A stretch of DNA of 16,295 nucleotides from an uncultured Intrasporangium sp. (GTDB lineage: Bacteria > Actinomycetota > Actinomycetes > Actinomycetales > Dermatophilaceae), in contig CALMNV010000089.1 in NCBI GenBank assembly GCA_937873285.1, forward strand, positions 1 to 16,295, read 5' to 3'. Shown one piece after another: positions 1 to 10,311 of this stretch (position 1 is its first letter; each line of letters starts with the position of its first letter). The notes below the pieces were generated by a model, which ran no database searches, had not been told where the DNA came from, and saw only the letters and a program-made list of their open reading frames with translations. Both the position numbers and the translations under genes were made by a program.

Positions 1-663
1 GGCTGGCCCGGTCTGCACCGTGCGTCGGGTGAGGTGCTCGTCGGCCTCCAGTCGGGCAGTGCGAGCGGCGACCCGAGCCGTGACCTGGCCTCGGCCCTCC
101 TGCTCACGCTCGCCGCACCCGACGGCGCCCCCGTCGAGACGCTGCCGGCGAGCACCGAGGAGACCCCCCGGCTGCAGGACGTGCTCGACACCTCCGCGTC
201 CCTCGACGTCCAGGTGCACGAGGGCTTCGACTTCTGGGTCGGGGACGCCGACCTCGACGCCGAGGGCAGGCAGTCCCTCGAGCAGGCCAATGCCTCCGCC
301 ATCCCCACCTCCAAGCTGGCCAGCGCACCGTCGTGCTACTGGTGCCGCATCGGGGAGCGGGCCTACGTGCGCTGGGTGCTGCCGTATGCCGAGGACGTCT
401 CCACCGACGCCCTCGCCCGCCTCCACGCGGCCCGGACGGGCACGGTGGGTGACGCGGGGCGCCTGCTCGGCTGCTTCCGATCCAGTGGGCTGCTCATCCC
501 CGTGTGGGAGGTCGACCCGGGCGCCGAGCCGGGAGCGTTCGAGGCCGACGTCGCTGCGCTGGCCGAGCGGATCGCGGCGGCGGCGGAGCGCACCGACCCG
601 CTGACCTCCGCCGAGCGTGGGGCCCGGGCCGGGCTGACCAACCGTCAGGTCACGCTGCGCTGA
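1..663 (+). CDS. DUF5926 family protein, C-terminal part (5' end outside window)
   Basis: The frame is open from base 1 to a TGA at 661-663, so the start lies upstream. The visible 220 residues match, from memory, the C-terminal two thirds of the actinobacterial DUF5926 family: an ASGEVLVGLQ segment, a GFDFWV segment, ANASAIPTSKLA, a YWC and YVRWVLPY pair, ALARLHAAR, and the very conserved tail GLTNRQVTL. Family members usually begin with a SEC-C type zinc motif (CPCGSG), which would lie outside this window. There is no signal peptide or membrane segment in the visible part. The biochemical function is unknown. In other actinobacteria this gene sits near pheA, as it does here. Family assignment is confident; function cannot be inferred. 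Confidence 0.85.
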   Translation, partial: GWPGLHRASGEVLVGLQSGSASGDPSRDLASALLLTLAAPDGAPVETLPASTEETPRLQDVLDTSASLDVQVHEGFDFWVGDADLDAEGRQSLEQANASAIPTSKLASAPSCYWCRIGERAYVRWVLPYAEDVSTDALARLHAARTGTVGDAGRLLGCFRSSGLLIPVWEVDPGAEPGAFEADVAALAERIAAAAERTDPLTSAERGARAGLTNRQVTLR

Positions 664-793
664 CGCTGCCGGGCCGAGAGCCCGCCAAGGGGCATCCCTG
701 CGCCCTGAGAGGGGGGCGAGCTCGCCCTGAAAGGTGCGTGTGAGTGGGGCGCCGGAGGTTCGCGGCCGTCGCCCTGCGGGTAGGACCCCGGGC
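664..793 (+). promoter_or_regulatory. DUF5926-catalase spacer with CGCCCTGA direct repeats and a GC palindrome
   Basis: This 130-bp spacer holds CGCCCTGA at 701-708 and again at 723-730, so the copies start exactly 22 bp apart (about two helical turns). Between and overlapping them is a perfect 14-bp palindrome, GGGCGAG at 714-720 joined to CTCGCCC at 721-727. A weak five-pair hairpin (670-674 with 680-684) directly follows the DUF5926 stop and could be a poor terminator. I see no convincing -10 or -35. The repeats could be a regulator site for the catalase gene, but they could also be chance in GC-rich DNA. Confidence 0.25.
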
Positions 794-3130
794 ATGCCCG
801 AGCCTCAGCAGCCAGCGAACAGCCCCGTGAACAAGGCCGCGGCGGCGGCCGCGTCCGTGACCCAGAAGGCCAGAGACAAGGCGGCAGACGTCGTCAAGGG
901 CGTCCAGGACGCCCTGGCCGGCGTGCGCATCCCGGGTGCCCCGGGCAGCGCTCCCGCGCCGGTCGACGAGCCCACCGAGCCTCGCGAGCCGCTCGCGCCC
1001 AAGCCGGACCAGTCCCCGGCGGCGCCGTTCTCGCCGACCGGCAAGGAGCTCCCCGTGCCGCCGGACGCGCGGGCCCAGGCCGGCGCCTTCCTGACGACGT
1101 CGCAGGGCGCCCGGCTGCACGACACCGACCACTCGCTCAAGGCGGGGAAGCGCGGCCCGACGCTCCTGCAGGACCACCACCTGCGCGAGAAGATCATGCA
1201 CTTCGACCACGAGCGGATCCCGGAGCGCGTCGTTCACGCGCGAGGAGCCGGGGCGCACGGGGTCTTCCGCTCCTACGGCACCGCGGCCAGCGTCACGAGG
1301 GCCGCCTTCCTCGCCGAGGGGGTGCAGACGCCCGTCTTCGTCCGCTTCTCCACCGTGGTCGGCTCGCGGGGCTCGGCGGACACGGTGCGCGACACCCGCG
1401 GGTTCGCCACGAAGTTCTACACCGCGGAGGGCACCTTCGACCTCGTCGGCAACAACATCCCCGTCTTCTTCATCCAGGACGCCATCAAGTTCCCCGACAT
1501 CGTCCACGCCGCCAAGCCGCACCCCGACCGGGAGATCCCCCAGGCCCAGAGCGCCCATGACACGTTCTGGGACTTCGTCTCGCTGCACACCGAGGCCCAG
1601 CACCACGTCATGTGGCAGATGTCCGACCGGGCCATCCCCCGCTCGTTCCGGACGATGGAGGGATTCGGGGTGCACACCTTCCGCCTCGTCGCCGCCGACG
1701 GGGGCACCACCCTCGTGAAGTTCCACTGGAAGCCACGGCTCGGCGTGCACTCCCTGGTGTGGGAGGAGGCCCAGCTCGCCGCCGGCGCCGACCCCGACTT
1801 CCACCGGCGCGACCTCGCCGACGCCATCGAGGCGGGTGCCCACCCCCAGTGGGAGCTCGGCATCCAGACCTTCCCCGACACCCCCGACCAGACCTTCGAG
1901 GGCATCGACCTGCTCGACCCGACCAAGCTCGTGCCGGAGGAGCTGGCACCCGTGCAGCCCATCGGCCTGCTCACCCTCGACGCTAACCCGACGAACTTCT
2001 TCGCCGAGACCGAGCAGGTGGCCTTCCACGTGGGCCATCTCGTGCCCGGTATCGACGTCACCGACGACCCGCTGCTGCAGGGCCGGCTCTTCTCCTACCT
2101 CGACACCCAGCTGAGCCGCCTCGGTGGCCCCAACTTCGGGCAGCTGCCGATCAACCGCCCGCACGCCCCGGTCAACGACATGCTGCGGGACGGCATGCAC
2201 CAGAGCGCCGACCACGCCGGGGTCGCCCCCTACAGGCCGAACTCCCTCGACGGCGGCTGCCCCTTCACCGCCGGCGCCGACCTCGGCGCCCTCGTCGAGG
2301 TGCCGCAGCCGGTGTCAGGCAGCAAGGTGCGCGCTGCGCCGGCCTCGTTCGACGACCACCTGAGCCAGGCGCGGATGTTCTGGCTCAGCATGTCGGCCAT
2401 CGAGCGCGACCACATCGCGCAGGCGTTCACCTTCGAGCTGGGCAAGTGCTACGAGCAGGGCATCAAGGAGCGCCAGCTGCGGATCCTCGCCGACATCGAC
2501 GAGGCCCTGTGCGCACAGGTGGCCACCGGGCTCGGGCTGCCTGCGCCGGAGCCCACCCAGCCCGTCGGCCCGGTCACGCCGAGCCCGACGCTCTCCCAGC
2601 TGGGGCGCCAGTGGCCCGTCGACGGCCGGGTGGTGGGCATCGTCGCGGACGAGGGCAGCGACCTCGCGGGCGTGCGCCGGGTGCGCGAGGCCCTCGACGC
2701 CGCCGGCATCCTCCCGCTCGTCGTCGCACCTCACGGCGGGATGCTCGAGGACGGGACCGGCGCCCCGGTGCCGGTGCAGCGCAGCTTCCTCACCGCGCGC
2801 TCCGTGGAGTTCGACGCCATCCTCGTCGCCGGGTCCCCGGCGCCCGCCTCCGACGCCACGCCGTCGACGGACGCCAAGGCCGCGCAGCCGCAGGACCTGC
2901 CCAGCGCCGTCGACCCCCGGGTCACGCTGATGCTGGGCGAGGCCTACCGGCACGCCAAGGTGCTCGGTGGCTGGGGCGACGCGGCGGTCGCCTTCACCGC
3001 GGCCGGGTGCGCCGACGGGCTGGGGGTCGTGCTCGGCGCGGACGCCGACCAGGTGCTGGCCGAGGTGCAGGAGCTGCTCGGGCTGCACCGCGTCTGGGAC
3101 CGGTTCAGCTCGCCGCAGGGGCTCGGCTGA
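794..3130 (+). CDS. katE: Large-subunit monofunctional catalase (HPII/KatE type) with C-terminal DJ-1/PfpI-like domain
   Basis: This is a heme catalase that converts hydrogen peroxide to water and oxygen. With the ATG at 794 it has 778 residues, close to E. coli HPII (753), the mark of the clade 2 large-subunit enzymes. The distal heme histidine is H148 in RVVHARG, the distal asparagine N221 in [17 protein letters not shown], and the proximal tyrosine Y435 in RLFSYLDTQ. Their spacing (73 and 287) equals that of H128, N201 and Y415 in HPII. From about residue 610 to the end lies a flavodoxin-like DJ-1/PfpI fold; the usual nucleophile-elbow cysteine is absent (KVLGGWGDA), as expected for a structural domain. 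Residues 1-60 form an Ala/Lys-rich helix then a Pro-rich linker. ATG 794 is preceded by AGGA (782-785). GTG starts at 734 and 740 would add about 20 residues and are less likely. Confidence 0.95.
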
Positions 3131-3229
3131 CGTCCGGGGCGACAGGGGTCGGCGCGCCGTGGGGCGCGCCGAGCAGCGCCTCAGCGTGCCGGCGGGCTCC
3201 CGGGCCGGACGCCGCCGCACGCTGAGGGC

Positions 3230-3235
3230 TACCCT
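3230..3235 (+). promoter_or_regulatory. Candidate leaderless -10 element (TACCCT) for the DUF4446-pheA unit
   Basis: TACCCT fits the actinobacterial TANNNT -10 pattern. It ends eight bases before the GTG at 3244, so transcription could start at the start codon itself, giving a leaderless mRNA. No clear -35 is visible, which is common for such promoters. The alternative is a GAGGG ribosome site (3224-3228) serving a TTG start at 3235. Confidence 0.35.
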
Positions 3236-3243
3236 TGCCCCTC

Positions 3244-3741
3244 GTGAGCGACACGACCTCGGCCGGCCCTGCGGTCGCCGTCGCGCTCGGAGCGGCGGTC
3301 GTCGCCCTCGTCGCCCTAATCCTCGCGCTGACCGCCCAGCGGCGGCTCGCGGCGGTGCGCCGGGACTTCCGGGTGCTGCACGGGGACGGTGCGACGGACA
3401 TCGCCCGGCTCGCCGCAGCCCAGACCTCCCGCCTCGATCGGCTCGGCGCCGACGTCGCGCAGCTGCGCTCCCAGCTGGCCGGCACGCAGGAGGACGTGCG
3501 GCAGAGCCTGCGCAACGTCGCCGTGGTGCGCTACGACGCGTTCGGTGACATGGGCGGCCGACTGTCGTTCTCCGCAGCGGTCGTCGACGACCACGGCGAC
3601 GGCCTCGTGCTCTCCGCCATCCACGCCCGCAGCGAGTCACGCACGTACGCCAAGGGAGTGGTGGGCGGTCGCTCCAGCATCCCGCTGACCCCCGAGGAGC
3701 AGCAGGCGCTGGCCGCCGCGCAGCGGGAGGACCCCGCATGA
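3244..3741 (+). CDS. DUF4446 family membrane-anchored protein
   Basis: This protein has 165 residues from GTG 3244 (168 from TTG 3235). After about eight polar residues comes a single hydrophobic helix (VAVALGAAVVALVALILAL), then a basic stretch, a predicted coiled coil (residues about 35-90, with LAAAQTSRLDRLGADVAQLR), and a compact C-terminal domain. That domain has the family hallmarks VVRYDAFGDMGG, SFSAAVVDDHGDG, and LSAIHARSESRTYAK. It is therefore probably anchored in the cytoplasmic membrane with one N-terminal helix. The function of DUF4446 is unknown. The stop overlaps the ATG of pheA in an ATGA, so the two are co-translated; the same pairing is common in actinobacteria. The choice between GTG and TTG is open, since GAGGG (3224-3228) is well placed only for the TTG. 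Confidence 0.88.
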   Translation: MSDTTSAGPAVAVALGAAVVALVALILALTAQRRLAAVRRDFRVLHGDGATDIARLAAAQTSRLDRLGADVAQLRSQLAGTQEDVRQSLRNVAVVRYDAFGDMGGRLSFSAAVVDDHGDGLVLSAIHARSESRTYAKGVVGGRSSIPLTPEEQQALAAAQREDPA

Positions 3742-4685
3742 CCCCGGCCCGCCCGCTGGAGCACCTGCGCCGCTTCGGCTACCTGGGCCCACGGGGAACC
3801 TTCACCCAGATGGCGCTCGAGGCGTGGACCGGGGCGGCTGGGAGCGAGCAGCTGCCCTACGGCTCCGTCGACGCCGCGCTCGACGCCCTCCGTGGCGGCG
3901 CCGTCGACGCCGCGATGGTGCCCATCGAGAACTCGGTGGAGGGAGGGGTGTCCGCCACCCTCGACGCGCTCGCCACCGGGGAGCCGCTCGTCGTGGTGGG
4001 CGAGGTGCTCGTGCCGATCACGTTCGTGCTGTGCGCTCGGCCCGGCACGTCACTGGGCGCGGTCCGCGCCGTGGGGACCCACTCGCATGCCTGGGCCCAG
4101 GTGCGCAGGTGGGTGGGGGCCCACCTTCCGGCCGCGGCATACGTGCCCACCCTGTCCACGGCCGCGGCAGCGGCAGCGCTCGCCGGGGACGGTGAGGTCG
4201 TCTTCGACGCCGCCGTGTGTGCGCCGGGTGCCGCGACCGGCTCGGGGCTCGAGGTGCTGGCTCGCGACATCGGCGACAGCTCCGGCGCGGTGACCCGCTT
4301 CGTCCTCGTGGCGCGGCCCGGCACGCTGCCGGCTCCCACCGGTGCCGACAAGACCACCGTGGTGCTCTACCAACAGGAGGACCACCCCGGAGGCCTGCTT
4401 GAGCTGCTCGAGCAGTTCGCGAGCCGGGGGGTCAACCTCACGCGGCTCGAGTCGCGACCCGTCGGCGGGCAGATGGGGCGCTACTGCTTCTCGATCGACC
4501 TCGAGGGGCACGTCAACGACGCGCGGGTGGGCGAGACGCTCATGGGGCTGAAGCGGGTCTGCGCCGATGTGCGCTTCCTCGGCTCCTATGCCCGGGCGGA
4601 CGGTGTGCCGGCGGTCGCCCGGCAGGGGACGACCGACGCGGACTTCGAGGCGGCCGCCGCCTGGTTGGCGCGGCTGCGGGCATGA
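3738..4685 (+). CDS. pheA: Prephenate dehydratase
   Basis: It converts prephenate to phenylpyruvate, the committed step of phenylalanine synthesis, in the cytoplasm. The 315-residue length matches the stand-alone actinobacterial enzyme, without a fused chorismate mutase. The N-terminal catalytic domain shows YLGPRGTFTQMAL near residue 14, VPIENSVEGGV, the THSHAWAQ segment, and the TRF motif at T186-R187-F188, which is essential for catalysis in the family. An ACT regulatory domain follows (about 197-280), with GGLLELLEQF in place of the usual GALV segment and an intact ESRP motif, so feedback control by phenylalanine is expected. It overlaps the DUF4446 stop by four bases and is followed by two strong inverted repeats, so it is probably the last gene of its unit. 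Confidence 0.96.
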   Translation: MTPARPLEHLRRFGYLGPRGTFTQMALEAWTGAAGSEQLPYGSVDAALDALRGGAVDAAMVPIENSVEGGVSATLDALATGEPLVVVGEVLVPITFVLCARPGTSLGAVRAVGTHSHAWAQVRRWVGAHLPAAAYVPTLSTAAAAAALAGDGEVVFDAAVCAPGAATGSGLEVLARDIGDSSGAVTRFVLVARPGTLPAPTGADKTTVVLYQQEDHPGGLLELLEQFASRGVNLTRLESRPVGGQMGRYCFSIDLEGHVNDARVGETLMGLKRVCADVRFLGSYARADGVPAVARQGTTDADFEAAAAWLARLRA

Positions 4686-4710
4686 CCCGCCCGGGGCAGC
4701 CGGCTCGAGG

Positions 4711-4736
4711 GGCGCCGGCGGCCCCCCGCCGGCGCC
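4711..4736 (+). terminator. GC-rich stem-loop after pheA (first of two)
   Basis: A perfect 11-bp inverted repeat (4711-4721 against 4726-4736) with a four-C loop starts 25 bases after the pheA stop. No T-run follows, which is normal for actinobacterial terminators. It probably ends or shields the catalase/DUF4446/pheA mRNA. Confidence 0.6.
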
Positions 4737-4780
4737 CTCGGGTCGCGGGCCGAGCCCCTGACCACGCCGCGACCGAGTGC

Positions 4781-4830
4781 CGGTCCCGGGCCCCGCCGCC
4801 CCCACGCGGCGCTCGACGGGCCCGGGACCG
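4781..4830 (+). terminator. Long composite stem-loop after pheA (second of two)
   Basis: A perfect 13-bp inverted repeat (4781-4793 with 4818-4830) encloses a second six-pair stem (4794-4799 with 4806-4811, loop 4800-4805). A six-base bulge (4812-4817) lies on the 3' side. The two stems would stack into one 19-pair hairpin. No T-run follows. It lies about 45 bases beyond the first hairpin and probably acts as a back-up terminator or 3' end stabiliser. Confidence 0.6.
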
Positions 4831-5015
4831 CCGTGCCCCGGTAATGCAGAGACGGGCAGGACGCGCCTGATACATCTGGAGCAGAATCTTCCTCGCGGTG
4901 CCCGTCTGCGGCGCGATGAGGTATCACCGGGCCTTGCCGGACGCACTTGGTTGCACCAGCATGCGAGGCACGGGCCTGTCGAGCCCGCGCACCTAAGGAC
5001 GCCAGGAGGAACGTG
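4831..5015 (+). promoter_or_regulatory. Leader region of the protease/sigma/CHAT operon
   Basis: This rest of the pheA-protease gap has no gene. It must carry the operon's promoter, but I find no confident -35/-10 pair; the AT-richest stretch is around 4868-4890 (TGATACAT then GAATCTT). GACGGGCA (4851-4858) and TGCCCGTC (4899-4906) are complementary and could fold back over a 40-base loop. A strong ribosome site, GGAGGA at 5005-5010, sits five bases before ATG 5016 and fixes that start over the longer readings at 4947 or 5013. A sigma-autoregulated ECF promoter might be expected here, but no clear one is seen. Confidence 0.4.
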
Positions 5016-6575
5016 ATGCCCGTGACACCGTCCAGGCAGGTGCCCGACGACGGCCGGTCGCTGGCGCTGCGCGCCAGCCTGCTCCACCCGTCCGTCTCCC
5101 CGCGGCTGCCAGGAGGCGAGGAGCCGACCCCGACGCTCTACGTGCGCAACCGGCTGCTGGTCTCCGGCGCCCCGGTCGGCGGCGATGTCGAGGCCCAGCT
5201 CGACCCGCTCCGGGCCGCTCTCGCCGAGCTGGGGCTGCAGGCGCGCGTGCCCGCGGACGTGGCCCGCCGCAGGGAGCGGCTCTCCCGCGGCGGGCGCCGA
5301 CTGCAGGAGCTGCTCGATGCCGTCTCGGCCTACCCGGTCGTCCTCGAAGCCGTGGGAGACGGGCCGGCGCCGCCGCCGGACGCGTGGGTCGTGCTCCAGC
5401 GCCTTCGCATCACGGCCCCCGAGGTGGCCGCCACCCTCTCCCTCGACCACATCGTGCGCTCCGCCGACGGCTACTGGGGCGGCGTCGACGGCTACTGGGG
5501 TGGCGTCGACGGCTTCTGGGGTGGCGTCGGCGCGCGGTGGGACGGGACGGGCCCGCGCGGCATGGCGGAGTACGGCACGCCCGGACGAGGCGGTCGTATG
5601 CCGGTCACGCTGGGCCTGCCCGACCCGTCGACCCGCGCCCGCGTCCTTGCGCGCCACCCGGTCGTGGCGCTGCCGGACACCGGCATCGGTCGCCACCCGT
5701 GGTTCGACGACCACCCTCGGGTGCTGCGCGACGTCGCCTACGCCGGGCAGCTGATCGGCGGTCCCGACGCCGACCTCGCCGGCACCCGTCCAGACGCCCT
5801 GACCGGTCAGGTGGGTCGCGACGTCGGGCACGGGACCTTCGTCGCCGGCCTCGTGCGGCAGGGGTGTCCCGAGGCCAGCCTCCTGACCGTTCCCGTCCTC
5901 ACCGGCACCGGGGTGGCCGAGGAGGCCGACGTCCTCGACGCGTTGACCGCGCTGCTGCTGCGGCACGTCGAGGGTCAGCAGGCCGCCGACCCCGCCGGTC
6001 GCGACCAGGTCATCGACGTGCTCTCGCTGTCGATCGGCTACTACCCCGAGTCGGTGGCCGACGTGCCGACGAGCCCGCTCGCGCGGCTGCTGCGCCGCTT
6101 CGGCGAGGAGGGGGTGCTCGTCGTGGCTGCCGTGGGCAACGACGCCACGCCCGCGCCGTTCGTGCCGGCTGCGCTCGCGGGCCGGACCGGGCGGGACGCG
6201 CTGCCCGTGGTCGGGGTCGGCGCGCTCAACCCCGACGGGTCCACGGTCGCGCTCTTCTGCAACGCCGGCCCCCATGTCAGCACGCACCGCCCCGGGGTGG
6301 CCATCGTCAGCACGGTGCCGACCGCCGACGCCGGCCTGCAGCCGTCGACCGTGGCCGGGCTCGACGACGGGCTGCGGCGCACGACGCTGGACCCGGACAA
6401 CTACGCGGGCGGATTCGCGATCTGGAGCGGCACCTCGTTCGCCGCGCCGGTGCTCGCCGCGGAGCTGGCCGCTCGCCTCGCCGAGGCGGACGACCTCGAG
6501 GACGTCAGCGCGCAGGCCATGCGGGCGCGTGGCTGGGACGCGCTGCGCGCCTGCGTCGGCTGGAGCCCGGCATGA
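5016..6575 (+). CDS. Subtilisin-like (S8) serine protease, first gene of the sigma/CHAT operon
   Basis: A 519-residue peptidase with the whole catalytic triad: Asp221 in VVALPDTGIG, His272 in DVGHGTFVAG, and Ser474 in SGTSFAAPVLA. It has no N-terminal signal peptide, membrane helix or sorting signal, so it appears cytoplasmic, unlike most subtilases. Residues about 1-150 form a separate N-terminal domain (YVRNRLLVSG, LDPLRAALAELG) that may be propeptide-like. Residues 151-171 are three tandem DG(Y/F)WGGV heptads linking it to the protease domain. The start at ATG 5016 is set by GGAGGA five bases upstream. The stop overlaps the sigma-factor ATG in an ATGA, so both are co-translated. Substrate unknown; the neighbouring regulator and CHAT protein are natural candidates (inference). 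Confidence 0.93.
   Translation: MPVTPSRQVPDDGRSLALRASLLHPSVSPRLPGGEEPTPTLYVRNRLLVSGAPVGGDVEAQLDPLRAALAELGLQARVPADVARRRERLSRGGRRLQELLDAVSAYPVVLEAVGDGPAPPPDAWVVLQRLRITAPEVAATLSLDHIVRSADGYWGGVDGYWGGVDGFWGGVGARWDGTGPRGMAEYGTPGRGGRMPVTLGLPDPSTRARVLARHPVVALPDTGIGRHPWFDDHPRVLRDVAYAGQLIGGPDADLAGTRPDALTGQVGRDVGHGTFVAGLVRQGCPEASLLTVPVLTGTGVAEEADVLDALTALLLRHVEGQQAADPAGRDQVIDVLSLSIGYYPESVADVPTSPLARLLRRFGEEGVLVVAAVGNDATPAPFVPAALAGRTGRDALPVVGVGALNPDGSTVALFCNAGPHVSTHRPGVAIVSTVPTADAGLQPSTVAGLDDGLRRTTLDPDNYAGGFAIWSGTSFAAPVLAAELAARLAEADDLEDVSAQAMRARGWDALRACVGWSPA
5466..5528 (+). repeat. Three tandem 21-bp repeats encoding DG(Y/F)WGGV heptads
   Basis: Three in-frame copies lie at 5466-5486, 5487-5507 and 5508-5528, encoding DGYWGGV, DGYWGGV and DGFWGGV (protease residues 151-171). 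Copies differ by single silent or conservative changes, such as GGC against GGT, and TAC against TTC. The aromatic, Gly-rich heptads sit between the N-terminal domain and the catalytic domain, where a linker, activation site or docking surface would lie. Confidence 0.95.
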
Positions 6576-7159
6576 CCGCCGGGCCCGCGCCCACGGCTCG
6601 CGAGGGGCTCGGTGCGCGCGCCGGGCAGGTCTTCCTCGCCTACCGAGCGGGGGAGAGGGAGCGGCTGCGCGACCTCGTGCAGCTGCTCACGCCGGTGCTC
6701 TGGCACACCGCCCGTGCCCAGGGCGCCGACGCGGCCACGTGCGAGGACGCCGTGCAGACCGCCTGGCTGCAGCTCGTCGAGCATGCCGAGCGGATCTCCG
6801 AGCCGATGGCGGTCCTCGGCTGGCTCGTCACCGTGGTCAAGCGCGAGGTCTGGCGCCTGTCGCGGGGGGCGCGTCGCGACGTGGACCTCGAGGAGCTGCC
6901 GGAGCGTCCCGCCGTGGCCGCGGACCCCGAGACGGTGTCCATCCTCGGCGAGCGCCAGCGGGTCCTGTGGTCTCACTTCGCCACCCTGCCGGTGCGCTGC
7001 CAGGAGCTGCTGCGCGTCATCGCCTTCGCCGACCGCCCCGACTACGCGGCCATCGCGGCCTCGCTCGGGATGCCGGTCGGCAGCATCGGCCCGACCCGGG
7101 GCCGGTGCCTGGGCAAGCTGAGGAGCGCCCTCGGCGCCGACCCCCGATGGGTGGGATGA
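6572..7159 (+). CDS. ECF-type RNA polymerase sigma-70 family factor
   Basis: A 195-residue sigma factor starting at ATG 6572, which overlaps the protease stop (ATGA). Only regions 2 and 4 are present, as in extracytoplasmic-function sigma factors. Region 2 covers about residues 25-90, with CEDAVQTAWLQLVEHAERI and LGWLVTVVKREVWRLSRG, the core-binding and -10 recognition part. Region 4 covers about 130-190, with LPVRCQELLRVIAF and a helix-turn-helix in DYAAIAASLGMPVGSIGPTR, expected to read the -35. The acidic linker (VDLEELPERP) is typical. No zinc-binding anti-sigma protein with a membrane helix follows, which is unusual. The next small gene occupies the anti-sigma position. The longer in-frame reading from 5384 is an artefact, since it runs through the protease in another frame. 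Confidence 0.93.
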   Translation: MTAGPAPTAREGLGARAGQVFLAYRAGERERLRDLVQLLTPVLWHTARAQGADAATCEDAVQTAWLQLVEHAERISEPMAVLGWLVTVVKREVWRLSRGARRDVDLEELPERPAVAADPETVSILGERQRVLWSHFATLPVRCQELLRVIAFADRPDYAAIAASLGMPVGSIGPTRGRCLGKLRSALGADPRWVG

Positions 7160-7165
7160 GCTGTG

Positions 7166-7648
7166 ATGTCAGATCAGTTCCTGGACGAGCAGGACGAGCA
7201 GACCATGGCGCAGCTGCGGGAGCTGCATGCCCGGGTTGACCCGGTGCCGGCCGGCCTGGTGGAGCGCATCGAGTTCGCGCTGACCGTCCAGGCCCTGCAC
7301 GCCGAGGTCGCCGAGCTCATGGACGACGAGCTGCTCGCCACCCGAGCCGGCCCCGTGCAACCGGGAGAGGTGACCCGCACCGAGTCGGTGACCTTCCAGG
7401 CGGCCTCGCTCAGCCTCATGGTCTCGCTCGGCCCTGGCTCGGACGACGACGTCGTGCGCGTCGACGGCTGGGTCACGCGGGCGGAAGCACAGGTCGACGC
7501 GGTGACCTCCGCCGGGACCCGGTCCGCGACGTGCGACGAGCACGGCCGGTTCGTCCTGCACGACCTCCCCCGCGGGCGCACCTGCTTCGTCGTGCGGGTC
7601 GGCGGCACCGGCGTGCGACCGGTCATCACCCCGACGATCGAGCTGTGA
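7166..7648 (+). CDS. Small protein with helical N-terminus and carboxypeptidase-regulatory-like beta domain; candidate sigma regulator
   Basis: A 160-residue soluble protein with no signal peptide or membrane helix. ATG 7166 begins six bases after the sigma stop; a GTG at 7163 would add one residue. Residues 1-55 are acidic and helical (DEQDEQTMAQLRELHARVDP, then LVERIEFALTVQALHAEVAEL). Residues about 90-160 look like a beta-sandwich of the carboxypeptidase-regulatory/transthyretin-like type: VRVDGWVT, a CDEHGRFVLHDLPRG turn, then VVRVGGTGV and TPTIEL. The gene sits where an ECF anti-sigma factor normally lies, and its helical N-terminus could contact the sigma factor (inference). It lacks the HxxxCxxC zinc motif of common anti-sigma proteins. 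Alternatively it is a scaffold or a substrate for one of the two proteases. I do not recognise a named family for the whole protein. Confidence 0.85.
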   Translation: MSDQFLDEQDEQTMAQLRELHARVDPVPAGLVERIEFALTVQALHAEVAELMDDELLATRAGPVQPGEVTRTESVTFQAASLSLMVSLGPGSDDDVVRVDGWVTRAEAQVDAVTSAGTRSATCDEHGRFVLHDLPRGRTCFVVRVGGTGVRPVITPTIEL

Positions 7649-7649
7649 G

Positions 7650-7664
7650 GCCGGCCCGGCCGGC
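7650..7664 (+). other. Small GC hairpin just before the CHAT gene ribosome site
   Basis: GCCGGC at 7650-7655 and 7659-7664 are complementary and could form a six-pair hairpin with a three-base loop, right after the stop at 7648. The ribosome site AGGA (7669-7672) and GTG 7678 follow within 14 bases. It may insulate or tune translation of the CHAT gene; it may also be incidental. Confidence 0.3.
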
Positions 7665-7677
7665 TCGCAGGATGTAG

Positions 7678-10311
7678 GTGAGCGCGGCCATCGACGCCCT
7701 CGAGCACGTGCGGGCCCTGCGCGAGCGGGCGGCCGCGGATAACCTGGCCGGCCGACCGCTGGACGCCGCCGGTGCGCTGGAGACCGCCCTCGCCGAGCTC
7801 GACCGGATCCAGACGCGCGGCCGGGCGGGCGGCTCGCCCCCCGATCCGGCCGAGCTCGTCCGGGACCGGGCCAAGACGATGGTCACCTATGGGCTGACCG
7901 ACTTCCTCCTCGCCGGCCTTCCCGCCGCGCTGGAGCGGCTCGGTGTCGCCGAACGCCTCGCGGGCGAGCTCGCGGATGCCGGCCTGCTGGCGCGGGTGCG
8001 GTTCCAACGGGCCTCCATCCACGGGCGCGCCGGGGATCTCGCGGCGGCGTGGCGGGACTTCGACGGCGTCCTTGAGCACCTGGACGCCTTCACCGACAGG
8101 GAGCAGTGCTCCGTGCTGCTCGCCCGCGGCATGCTGGCCGTCAAGCAGGCGCGGCCCAGGGAGGCGGTCGACGCCTTCGCCAGGGCCGCCGCGCTCGCCG
8201 AGCGGCTGGGCTTCCTCGAGCAGGAGGTCATGGCCCGGCACAACCAGGGGTATGCCGCCCACCTCCTCGGCGACGTGCCGCGGGCTCTGGCGCTCATGGG
8301 CGCCGCAGCCGAGCGGGGCGGGTCGGTGGCCGTGGCGACGATGCGCCTCGACCGGGCTGCCGCCCTGCTCGAGGCGGGACTGGCCCGGGAGGCGGTCGAG
8401 GTGCTGGTGGCCGGGCGCGCCGAGCTGCCCGACGAGGGCAGTGACCTCGCCCGCGGCGAGTTCCACCTCGACCTGGCCAAAGCGGACCGGATCCTCGGCC
8501 GGCCGGCCCGGGCGAGCGCGAACGCGCAGGAGGCGGCAGCCGCCTACGGCCGGGTCGGGGCGACGGCATGGGCGGCGCGAGCCAGGCTCGTGGCGCTGCA
8601 GGCCCGGCTCGACGAGCTGCGGACGCCTTCCCGACCGCCCGGCAGTCCGCGACGGCGGTCGCCCACCGACGAGTCGGTGGCCCGCAGCGTCACCGACGCC
8701 TGCGACCGGGTCGCCGCAACCGCCGGTCACGTCGGCGATGCCGGACTCGCCGACACCGCACGGGTGACCGCCGCCGAGGCCGAGCTCCTCGCCGGGGACC
8801 ACGAGGCGGCCGACCGGCGGCTGGGGGACCGGCCGCGCCGGGCCCCCGGCTCCCTGTCCGAGCAGCTGGCCGCCGCCGCGGTGACCGCCTCGGTGCACGC
8901 CGCCTGCGGCCGCCCGGCAGCCGCGCGTCGCGTGCTGGCGGCCGCGGCGCGGCGGCTCGCTGCCGGTCAGAGCGGAAGCGCCAGCCTGGACGTGCGCACC
9001 GCCCGAGCGGTGCACGGCATACGGCTGGCCGACCTCGACCTCGACCTCGCGCTGGGGCACGGCAGCGGTGCGGTGCTCGCCGCCCTGGAGCGCTGGCGCG
9101 CCGCCACCGACCGGCTGCCGCGCCTCGGCCGCCCCGAGGACGAGCTGCTCGCCGCGCTGACGGACGAGCTGCGGGCCGTCCATGCGCAGCTTCGCGCCGG
9201 GGGCGCGGAGGGCCGGTTGCCGGAGCTGCAGGCTCGCGCCCGGCGCCTCGAGCGAGCGGTCCGCGCCCGCGACTGGACCCTGGCCACCGTCCATGCGGGG
9301 CCGGCTCGGCAGGCTCCCCGACTGCACGAGGCCCGTGCCGCACTCGCGGCGGCGGACCGGGACCTGCTGTGGTTCTTCTCCGCTCGCGGCCGGCTCTGCG
9401 GGGTCGGCGTGCAGGCCGGGCGGGCACGCGTGCGCGACCTGCTCGACCTCGACCGTGCGGCGGAGCTGGCCCAGCGGGTCCGGGCCGACCTCCGGGTGGC
9501 CGCGAGCCGTCGGCTGGGCCCCCTCGGCGAGGCGGTCTGGGGCTCGTTGCACGCGGCGGCGGCGGAGCTCGACCCGGCGCTGCTGCGGCCGTGGGGCGAG
9601 CGAGCGCCGGGCCTCGTCGTCGTCGCCTGCTCCGAGCTGGCGGCCCTGCCGTGGGCCCTGCTGCCCTCGCTCCGGGACCGGCCGGTGACGGTGGCGCGGT
9701 CGCTGTCCGGCTTCGCGGCAGGAGCGGGCGGCGGCTCGCCCGTCGCGTCCGTGCACGTCTCCGTCGGGCCCGGCGTGGAGCGGGCTGGCGCCGAGGGGCA
9801 GGCCGTGGCCGCGGCGTGGTCCGGGCCAGGGGGGCCGGCTGCCGGCGTCGAGCTCGCCGCACCTTCGTCGCGGGCCCGGCTGCTCGCCGCGCTCGGAGCC
9901 GCCGACGTGGTGCACGTGGCCGCGCACGGGGTGCACGAGCCGCAGTCGCCGCTGTTCTCCTCGGTCAGCCTCGACGACGGCCCGCTCTTCGCCCACGAGG
10001 TCCAGCCGCACGGCGTCGCGGCCTCGCACATCGTGCTCTCGGCATGCGACGTCGGCACCCCGGCCGTCCGGCCCGGGGAGGAGGCCCTGGGGCTGGCGGC
10101 CTCGCTGCTCGCCCTCGGCGCGGCGTCGGCGGTGGCGGCCGTGGCACCGGTCCCCGACGACGTGGCCGCGGAGGCGATGGTCCGACACCATCTCGCCCTG
10201 GCCGCCGGGCTGCCCAGCGACGAGGCGCTCGTGACGGCGCTGGGCGGCTGCGACCCCGTCGCCCGGGCGTTCGTCAACCTGGGCACGACGTGGCGGCCGC
10301 CGGCCCCCTGA
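7678..10311 (+). CDS. Helical-repeat (TPR-like) protein with C-terminal CHAT caspase-like protease domain
   Basis: An 877-residue protein from GTG 7678, preceded by AGGA at 7669-7672. Residues 1-310 are helical pairs rich in Ala, Leu and Arg that read as TPR-like repeats (for example RARVRFQRASIHGRAGDLAA and RHNQGYAAHLLGDVPRALAL). A Pro/Arg/Ser linker (about 313-335) separates a second helical block (335-545). The CHAT domain runs from about 550 to 870: DRDLLWFFSARGRLCGVGV opens it, His750 lies in VHVAAHGVHEP, and Cys790 in HIVLSACDVG. This is the caspase-type His/Cys dyad, so an active cysteine protease is likely. The TPR part would sense a partner and control the protease, as in other TPR-CHAT proteins. 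It is the last gene of the operon. Its target is unknown; the sigma-linked 160-residue protein is my first candidate (inference). Confidence 0.92.
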   Translation: MSAAIDALEHVRALRERAAADNLAGRPLDAAGALETALAELDRIQTRGRAGGSPPDPAELVRDRAKTMVTYGLTDFLLAGLPAALERLGVAERLAGELADAGLLARVRFQRASIHGRAGDLAAAWRDFDGVLEHLDAFTDREQCSVLLARGMLAVKQARPREAVDAFARAAALAERLGFLEQEVMARHNQGYAAHLLGDVPRALALMGAAAERGGSVAVATMRLDRAAALLEAGLAREAVEVLVAGRAELPDEGSDLARGEFHLDLAKADRILGRPARASANAQEAAAAYGRVGATAWAARARLVALQARLDELRTPSRPPGSPRRRSPTDESVARSVTDACDRVAATAGHVGDAGLADTARVTAAEAELLAGDHEAADRRLGDRPRRAPGSLSEQLAAAAVTASVHAACGRPAAARRVLAAAARRLAAGQSGSASLDVRTARAVHGIRLADLDLDLALGHGSGAVLAALERWRAATDRLPRLGRPEDELLAALTDELRAVHAQLRAGGAEGRLPELQARARRLERAVRARDWTLATVHAGPARQAPRLHEARAALAAADRDLLWFFSARGRLCGVGVQAGRARVRDLLDLDRAAELAQRVRADLRVAASRRLGPLGEAVWGSLHAAAAELDPALLRPWGERAPGLVVVACSELAALPWALLPSLRDRPVTVARSLSGFAAGAGGGSPVASVHVSVGPGVERAGAEGQAVAAAWSGPGGPAAGVELAAPSSRARLLAALGAADVVHVAAHGVHEPQSPLFSSVSLDDGPLFAHEVQPHGVAASHIVLSACDVGTPAVRPGEEALGLAASLLALGAASAVAAVAPVPDDVAAEAMVRHHLALAAGLPSDEALVTALGGCDPVARAFVNLGTTWRPPAP

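Follow-up and report, generated by a model that had tools for sequence, protein, structure and literature searches.

A four-gene operon of two proteases, a sigma factor and a small partner protein as a candidate protease-gated switch in an Intrasporangium sp.

What does a sigma factor do between two different proteases in one compact operon? This question is raised by positions 5016 to 10311 of contig CALMNV010000089.1 from an uncultured Intrasporangium sp., of which the whole stretch of 16,295 nucleotides was analyzed and is called the window below. Here an S8 subtilase (S8), an extracytoplasmic function (ECF) sigma factor (SIG), a small protein (SML) and a TPR-CHAT caspase-like protease (CHAT) are encoded one behind the other, and the operon resembles a cut-to-activate switch. 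The answer we prefer is a cytoplasmic ECF sigma switch that is gated by proteases and regulates its own expression, which, with all its steps taken as one joint reading, we consider quite possible and somewhat short of probable. Its computed support comprises gene linkage, co-inheritance, a promoter-like dyad, a zymogen-like model of S8, a repeat array in the same protease and a partial co-divergence of this array with the TPR part of CHAT. Four features go beyond an earlier annotation of the window (the original prediction): the promoter dyad, the array of repeats, the pro-subtilisin architecture of S8 and the separation into a SIG-SML and an S8-CHAT module.

Conservation and inheritance of the four genes

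The compact operon of the original prediction was confirmed to the base: on the forward strand S8 (5016 to 6575) and SIG (195 residues, 6572 to 7159) overlap by 4 bases, while SML (160 residues, 7166 to 7648) and CHAT (877 residues, 7678 to 10311) follow after 6 and 29 bases, respectively. S8 was identified by its Pfam match (Peptidase_S8, E 1e-18), a triad alignment and a pro-subtilisin-like structure model, CHAT by Pfam (CHAT, E 1.5e-21) and an active-site alignment, and SIG by Pfam, NCBIfam and structure comparison (Sigma70_r2, E 3e-8; PF04542, 33.9 bits with a cut-off of 24; TIGR02937, 54 bits with a cut-off of 42.9). Residues 14 to 190 of SIG align with ECF structures, which gives it an ECF-type architecture. 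The active sites read from the translations, D221/H272/S474 in S8 and H750/C790 in CHAT, had been called intact before and are conserved in relatives as well. The S8 triad is unchanged throughout a 59-row alignment, and when motifs were searched for, 82 of 94 S8 matches had the complete set of three, the other 12, all among the more distant members, missing one; the CHAT His and Cys are retained in every one of the 100 sufficiently long relatives among 120 matches. The window's own CHAT gave no TPR match in Pfam at E≤1, and TPR_12 scored above its cut-off in three relatives (L037, L003, L136) and below it in L057; CHAT is thus a TPR-CHAT protease with a His/Cys dyad whose Pfam TPR evidence comes from relatives. 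As likewise predicted, no membrane anti-sigma factor or signal peptide was apparent: the best 19-residue Kyte-Doolittle means of S8, SIG and SML were 1.26, 0.89 and 1.04, without a signal-peptide- or membrane-like segment. The hydrophobic segment of CHAT (residues 804 to 822, mean 2.07) lies within the CHAT domain.

The expectation of a conserved block was then checked in 143 stretches, namely the window, L002, L003, 40 stretches picked by CHAT and 100 picked by SML, so that neither the CHAT nor the SML count is unbiased. All 130 SML matches at E≤1e-4 in these stretches were counted; the locus set does not include the SML places of G249 and G216 or the second such place of G479. Filters for length, E-value and similarity retained 111 of the 130 SML, 100 of the 120 CHAT and 70 of the 94 S8 sequences, 59 of the latter being aligned. 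SIG lies directly upstream of SML in 127 of the 130 cases, and within 6 kb of SML we found S8 in 88, CHAT in 103 and both proteases in 85. The small protein thus stands where the original prediction placed it, in the anti-sigma position, and is a near-obligate neighbor of SIG; outside the class, too, SIG directly precedes SML in 18 of 21 further loci. The main gene orders are SIG-SML-S8-CHAT (24 loci), the window's S8-SIG-SML-CHAT (20), a divergent CHAT next to S8-SIG-SML (23), SIG-SML-CHAT (16) and SIG-SML alone (24). A CHAT match was obtained in 36 of 149 genomes of the order, and a search with the SML alignment was positive in 102 of 394 class genomes and, in some cases weakly, in 50 of 396 phylum genomes. 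Because the block recurs across the class, it is hardly a chance arrangement, and the sequence comparison supports the four genes as a conserved functional unit.

In 24 genomes SIG-SML has no CHAT within 6 kb. A search with the CHAT alignment detected a strong match at another place in 23 of them (best E≤3e-87; G220 and G453 each have it in two pieces), the sole exception being a genome that is 75% complete. None of the 31 genomes listed without SML contained a full-length CHAT, the best match in this 40-genome search being partial (1e-18); nine of the searched genomes (G136, G002, G003, G007, G009, G014, G019, G020 and G022), which stem from those lacking a CHAT match and were not on the SML-negative list, were set aside from the comparison. 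The difference between 23/24 and 0/31 gives a Fisher p of 1.3e-14, uncorrected for relatedness, and genus g83, in which many other members are SML-positive, accounts for four of the 31. In all eight stretches that were retrieved around a CHAT in trans, S8 was its neighbor. Since the distant CHAT is co-inherited with SML and adjoined by S8, the set comprises a SIG-SML and an S8-CHAT module that are passed on together.

Some individual loci depart from the common pattern. Outside the class, G834 and G602 contain three SML matches apiece, all on one contig in G834, and L239 of G834 carries S8-SML-CHAT without SIG, with an S8 repeat unit of its own (HPLYDG, four times). In L084 the SIG gene was matched in two frames, as if by a frameshift, beside an intact S8 array.

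The S8 repeat array and the TPR part of CHAT

By its structure model, S8 would be a cytosolic pro-subtilisin: the prodomain (about residues 44 to 150) is docked on the catalytic domain (about residues 200 to 517), which together with the complete triad corresponds to a zymogen. Among the Foldseek matches listed, pro-subtilisin E (3whi) and pro-Tk-subtilisin (2e1p) have the same arrangement of propeptide and catalytic domain; in contrast to these, S8 exhibits a tandem repeat array at the pro/mature junction and lacks a signal-peptide-like segment. The array, DGYWGGV DGYWGGV DGFWGGV, covers residues 151 to 171 (positions 5466 to 5528, forward strand) and adjoins and enters a stretch modeled as disordered (residues 152 to 180). 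In a survey of 37 S8 proteins at E<1e-100, one of which lacked the D motif, 27 distinct units were found among 30 proteins, and 6 of 36 had no detectable array.

Synonymous codons of neighboring units agree in 380 of 638 cases (0.596), compared to 0.622 expected from codon usage; this count covers 27 of the 30 arrays (L061, L074 and L087 were left out) and stretches that were chosen for perfect peptide repetition. As the unit codons in sum differ as codon usage predicts, DNA slippage or recent duplication was rejected as the source of the perfect repeats for most arrays; in L003, L083, L078, L088 and the window's own array the unit codons are more alike than expected. A copied substrate motif of SIG, SML or CHAT was ruled out as well, because in 30 of 30 loci the unit shares no four-residue word with these proteins, and because the APFTRG array of three genomes matched S8 alone, if hits at E 0.11 or above and the opposite strand of the S8 place itself are disregarded.

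A possible partner of the array emerged from the comparison of closely related loci. L066 and L068 are 2% apart in the S8 catalytic part and 4% apart in CHAT beyond residue 200, whereas CHAT residues 1 to 200 differ by 28%, and all five S8 repeat units are changed alike. L084 and L087 have a common unit, and their CHAT difference is spread evenly. For 29 loci (406 pairs; L075 was excluded, its CHAT being cut by the contig end) the distance between units correlates with that between TPR parts with a partial correlation of 0.29 given the other distances, a value reached in 0 of 2000 permutations; leaving out the L066/L068 pair gives 0.273 (again 0 of 2000). The next partial correlations with unit distance were those of SIG (0.134; 76 of 2000) and mid-CHAT (0.110; 146 of 2000). 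Among close pairs the ratio of TPR to catalytic distance is 0.72 to 1.10 where the unit is the same (n=4) and 1.09 to 7.7 where it differs (n=11). The co-divergence of array and TPR part that computation shows in these sequences is a partial one. Because the array is tracked by the TPR part of CHAT and not by its catalytic part, we infer that it may be a docking site rather than a cut site.

A retest within one genus, combining 12 additional loci with L078, L075 and L046 (91 usable pairs; L257 was dropped for want of a CHAT match), included 48 same-unit pairs with a mean ratio of 1.11, and here units differ solely by Ser/Thr. Since the unit remains stable while the proteins diverge, the array appears to be lineage-specific rather than hypervariable in this one-genus sample.

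The small protein, the sigma factor and the promoter-like dyad

SML is modeled as two N-terminal helices joined by a disordered linker to a beta-sandwich domain. The helical part has a DPVP motif, the linker a conserved Arg, and the beta domain terminates in a TP motif in the window's clade. In Pfam SML gave only a sub-threshold CarboxypepD_reg match, as did 19 of 21 SML relatives (E≤0.1), and no anti-sigma family, RsiW- or RseA-like ones included, was matched by the 21 members at this threshold. The linker residue, Arg60 in the window (codon at 7343 to 7345, forward strand), is a candidate cleavage site: a regular expression found the Arg in 103 of 106 sequences, and on reading it is present in the three exceptions and in five sequences lacking the DP motif. 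A role of this Arg as a site for CHAT only is weakened by its persistence without a nearby CHAT.

As SIG and SML are in the same frame and separated by one TGA, they were modeled as one chain. The fused model reached a predicted local distance difference test score (pLDDT) of 89.5 and a predicted template modeling score (pTM) of 0.71, with a pLDDT of 82 to 95 for the SML helices and of about 55 for the linker; in this joint model of SIG and SML the sigma factor takes up a closed arrangement as in CnrH/CnrY and RpoE/NepR. Among the matches listed, the modeled sigma overlays SigW/RsiW, CnrH/CnrY and RpoE/NepR across both domains at 3.9 to 5.1 Å, whereas with polymerase-bound sigma factors both domains overlay only at 26 to 28 Å. 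The model is consistent with a held sigma factor and is not a proof of one, since a free ECF sigma factor (7qh5) fits as well and several anti-sigma complexes match one domain only.

Autoregulation of the operon by SIG is suggested by a promoter-like dyad, GTATCA-N16-CTC. When spacers of 8 to 26 bases were counted over the 143 stretches, GTATCA and CTC were 16 bases apart in 112 cases and 17 bases apart in 21, while no other spacer exceeded 23. With a spacer of 15 to 17 the dyad occurs in the 450 bases that precede the operon leader in 58 of 126 cases, compared to 49 of 2860 random stretches from the same loci, and it is this position in front of the operons on which the suggestion rests. In the window a relaxed copy, GTATCA-N16-GCAC (4921 to 4946, forward strand), starts 95 bases before the S8 start and may be the operon promoter; L066 and L068 have a relaxed GTATCA-N15-GCAC. 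The strict copy (4849 to 4873, reverse strand) points away from the operon, with no clear gene behind it, and oppositely oriented dyads also precede L003, L034, L035, L037, L038 and L040. In most cases the SIG start is found 33 to 35 bases away from where the motif begins. This is no more than a hint at leaderless transcripts, because the start was picked as the first codon more than 25 bases away wherever the frame ran on upstream.

The dyad is also found next to other genes. In nine loci (L130, L135, L136, L137, L141, L142, L151, L152 and L154) it precedes a regulator family near the block, in six of them at a distance of 33 bases from the start codon that the script chose; two of these regulators were tested in Pfam and contain LuxR/AAA domains. 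The gene divergent from S8 in L035 (13885-14817), which encodes a HopA1 domain according to Pfam, and its counterpart in L038 are likewise preceded by GTATCA-N16-CTC. A stricter pattern gave 42 matches versus 21 control matches in 12 other genomes, and 36 short stretches around the sites listed were viewed unscored; a wider SIG regulon is therefore not claimed.

Proposed switch, rival explanations and known systems

In the proposed switch, SML would grip SIG in the resting state via its two N-terminal helices and thereby inhibit it, and S8 would be kept as a zymogen, the propeptide domain covering its active site. CHAT would dock with its TPR part on the repeats at the pro/mature junction of S8. 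A cue would activate CHAT, which would free S8, or the reverse order may apply, and the activation of S8 would remove its propeptide. CHAT, S8 or both would then cut SML in the disordered linker, possibly at Arg60, and the freed SIG would use GTATCA-N16-CTC promoters to transcribe the operon that encodes it and, in some genera, neighboring regulators too. The more specific claim, namely a two-protease cascade, CRISPR-free and common across Actinomycetia, in which TPR part and lineage-specific array co-evolve like lock and key before an SML cut frees SIG, is put forward tentatively and with considerable doubt.

Several observations speak against the proposed switch. The same-unit pairs are only 4 of 406 and come from two clades, and the one-genus retest gave no TPR excess (mean ratio 0.98 for 43 different-unit pairs). 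In L117, L143, L144 and L239 S8 directly precedes SML and SIG is undetectable. The linker Arg is retained where CHAT is not nearby, though CHAT is then present in trans. The window's genome, 58% complete, contains 6 dyads versus 4 control matches, the operon strand of the window carries the relaxed copy only, and in family f38 no dyad common to the SIG and the S8/CHAT promoters was found. Finally, the modeled support for the SIG-SML contact is indirect: of the complex that the original prediction proposed to model, the overlay with anti-sigma-held sigma factors stood, but 7qh5 overlays likewise, at 5.1 Å, and the anti-sigma complexes 1or7, 4nqw, 6dxo, 6in7 and 8z6g align over one sigma domain only.

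Four other explanations have to be weighed. SML could be a scaffold or substrate of S8-CHAT instead of a sigma inhibitor, with SIG merely turning on an otherwise controlled operon, as the SIG-less S8-SML(-CHAT) loci and the lack of an anti-sigma match among the 21 SML members would fit; given that SIG directly precedes SML almost throughout and stays paired with it where S8-CHAT is distant, and that three of the four SIG-less genomes have extra SML copies (behind SIG in G213, L133, and G402, L161; two further copies in G834), we regard this as unlikely. Somewhat less doubtful is that S8 cuts SML and CHAT is only its activator or sensor, or that S8 restrains CHAT via the array. In 88 of 130 cases S8 is encoded close to SML, in the four SIG-less loci it lies directly before it, and it models as a zymogen, but SML and CHAT are co-inherited, and 16 SIG-SML-CHAT loci show no S8 match within 6 kb by the model used, the remainder of those genomes being unsearched.

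About as doubtful as the latter is a flexible spacer, where the TPR part of CHAT would simply be fast-evolving and the co-divergence a coincidence or a matter of shared relaxed constraint. The predicted disorder of the array residues, its absence from 6 of 36 S8 proteins and the Ser/Thr changes without co-divergence in one genus agree with a spacer; the units, however, are identical in amino acids while their synonymous codons agree no more than expected, all five L066/L068 units were altered in concert, and the close-pair ratios run from 0.72 to 1.10 for same and from 1.09 to 7.7 for different units. Least probable, and in our view quite improbable, is a cell-death or anti-phage effector, in which active S8 and CHAT would digest cell proteins and SIG would boost their expression. 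CHAT proteases occur in conflict systems, Craspase being the precedent, and two proteases behind a dyad that suggests autoregulation would suit such a role, as would the PADLOC matches of S8 and CHAT, which are weak (best 5e-5, 20.8 bits, subtilase; operon proteins were searched, not neighbors). Most genomes searched, though, have a single SML place, and flanking gene families recur chiefly within related groups. Among plasmid records one of 11.85 Mb matches SML and none matches CHAT, and the phage records, searched with SML and not with CHAT, gave one match for SML, on a scaffold that is unverified and bacterial-looking. With neither a strong PADLOC match nor a mobile or defence-island setting, the conflict role considered in the original prediction gained no support, and a defence role is not supported by the genomic location.

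The phage-labeled record, L215 (MT838002.1, positions 1-7478, 'Bacteriophage sp.', human faeces), has a partial S8 gene followed by SIG, SML and CHAT, as they are ordered in the window, with a GC content of 74%, and resembles a mislabeled bacterial scaffold. In the window the operon is flanked by genes for a catalase, a DUF4446 protein, a prephenate dehydratase, three sugar ABC transporter components, a ROK-type regulator and one matchless protein, these eight neighbors having been tested four via Pfam and four via NCBIfam. Relatives of the operon with names come from Intrasporangium oryzae (L002) and a Propionibacteriaceae metagenome-assembled genome (L003).

Among described mechanisms the nearest analog is Craspase/CASP of type III-E CRISPR, in which, according to the part of the source considered, the TPR-CHAT protease Csx29 cuts Csx30, an inhibitory binding partner of an ECF sigma factor (PMC10028731). 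The operon likewise has a TPR-CHAT protease and an ECF sigma factor with a small partner. It differs in its additional subtilisin-type protease with a repeat array, in the CarboxypepD_reg-like beta domain of SML (a weak match) and in that the window's CHAT matches just one TPR-CHAT chain, 7zoq_A, at E 0.61. Since none of the eight neighbors is named as a Cas gene (cas7-11 included; no genome-wide search was made), membership is not claimed; of the proposed CRISPR-independent Craspase relative, the conserved sigma-partner-protease unit without a named Cas neighbor stands. In the type III CRISPR system CalpL/CalpT/CalpS, as far as the consulted part of its description goes, an anti-sigma factor holding an ECF sigma factor is cut by a Lon-SAVED protease activated by cyclic tetra-adenylate (cA4) (PMC11417357), which resembles the sigma partner cut proposed here; no Lon or SAVED match was found in Pfam for the four operon proteins. 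RseA/DegS and RsiW-type anti-sigma cascades are named in the considered part of PMC10028731, and in contrast to these SML has no visible membrane span and S8 no signal-peptide-like segment. A looser parallel are the EACC2-caspase systems, a caspase-fold protease adjoining an ECF sigma factor, for which the consulted part of PMC8195603 describes ECF sigma and TPR protein neighbors, proposes a coupling of proteolysis and transcription and mentions no S8; for the four operon proteins Pfam listed neither EACC2 nor TRADD-N nor DUF1822.

For the four-gene set itself, no recognised description was found in the literature searched, at a depth short of full texts; what was retrieved dealt with CRISPR, the EACC2 systems and phage shock proteins. 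Roughly one in four of the class genomes sampled has SML, and those checked for CHAT and S8 mostly possess both as well. If the proposed switch is true, these bacteria would possess a cytosolic protease cascade governing transcription outside CRISPR, and the family would offer a natural series of matched peptide-reader pairs in which protease docking and zymogen activation would be directly testable.
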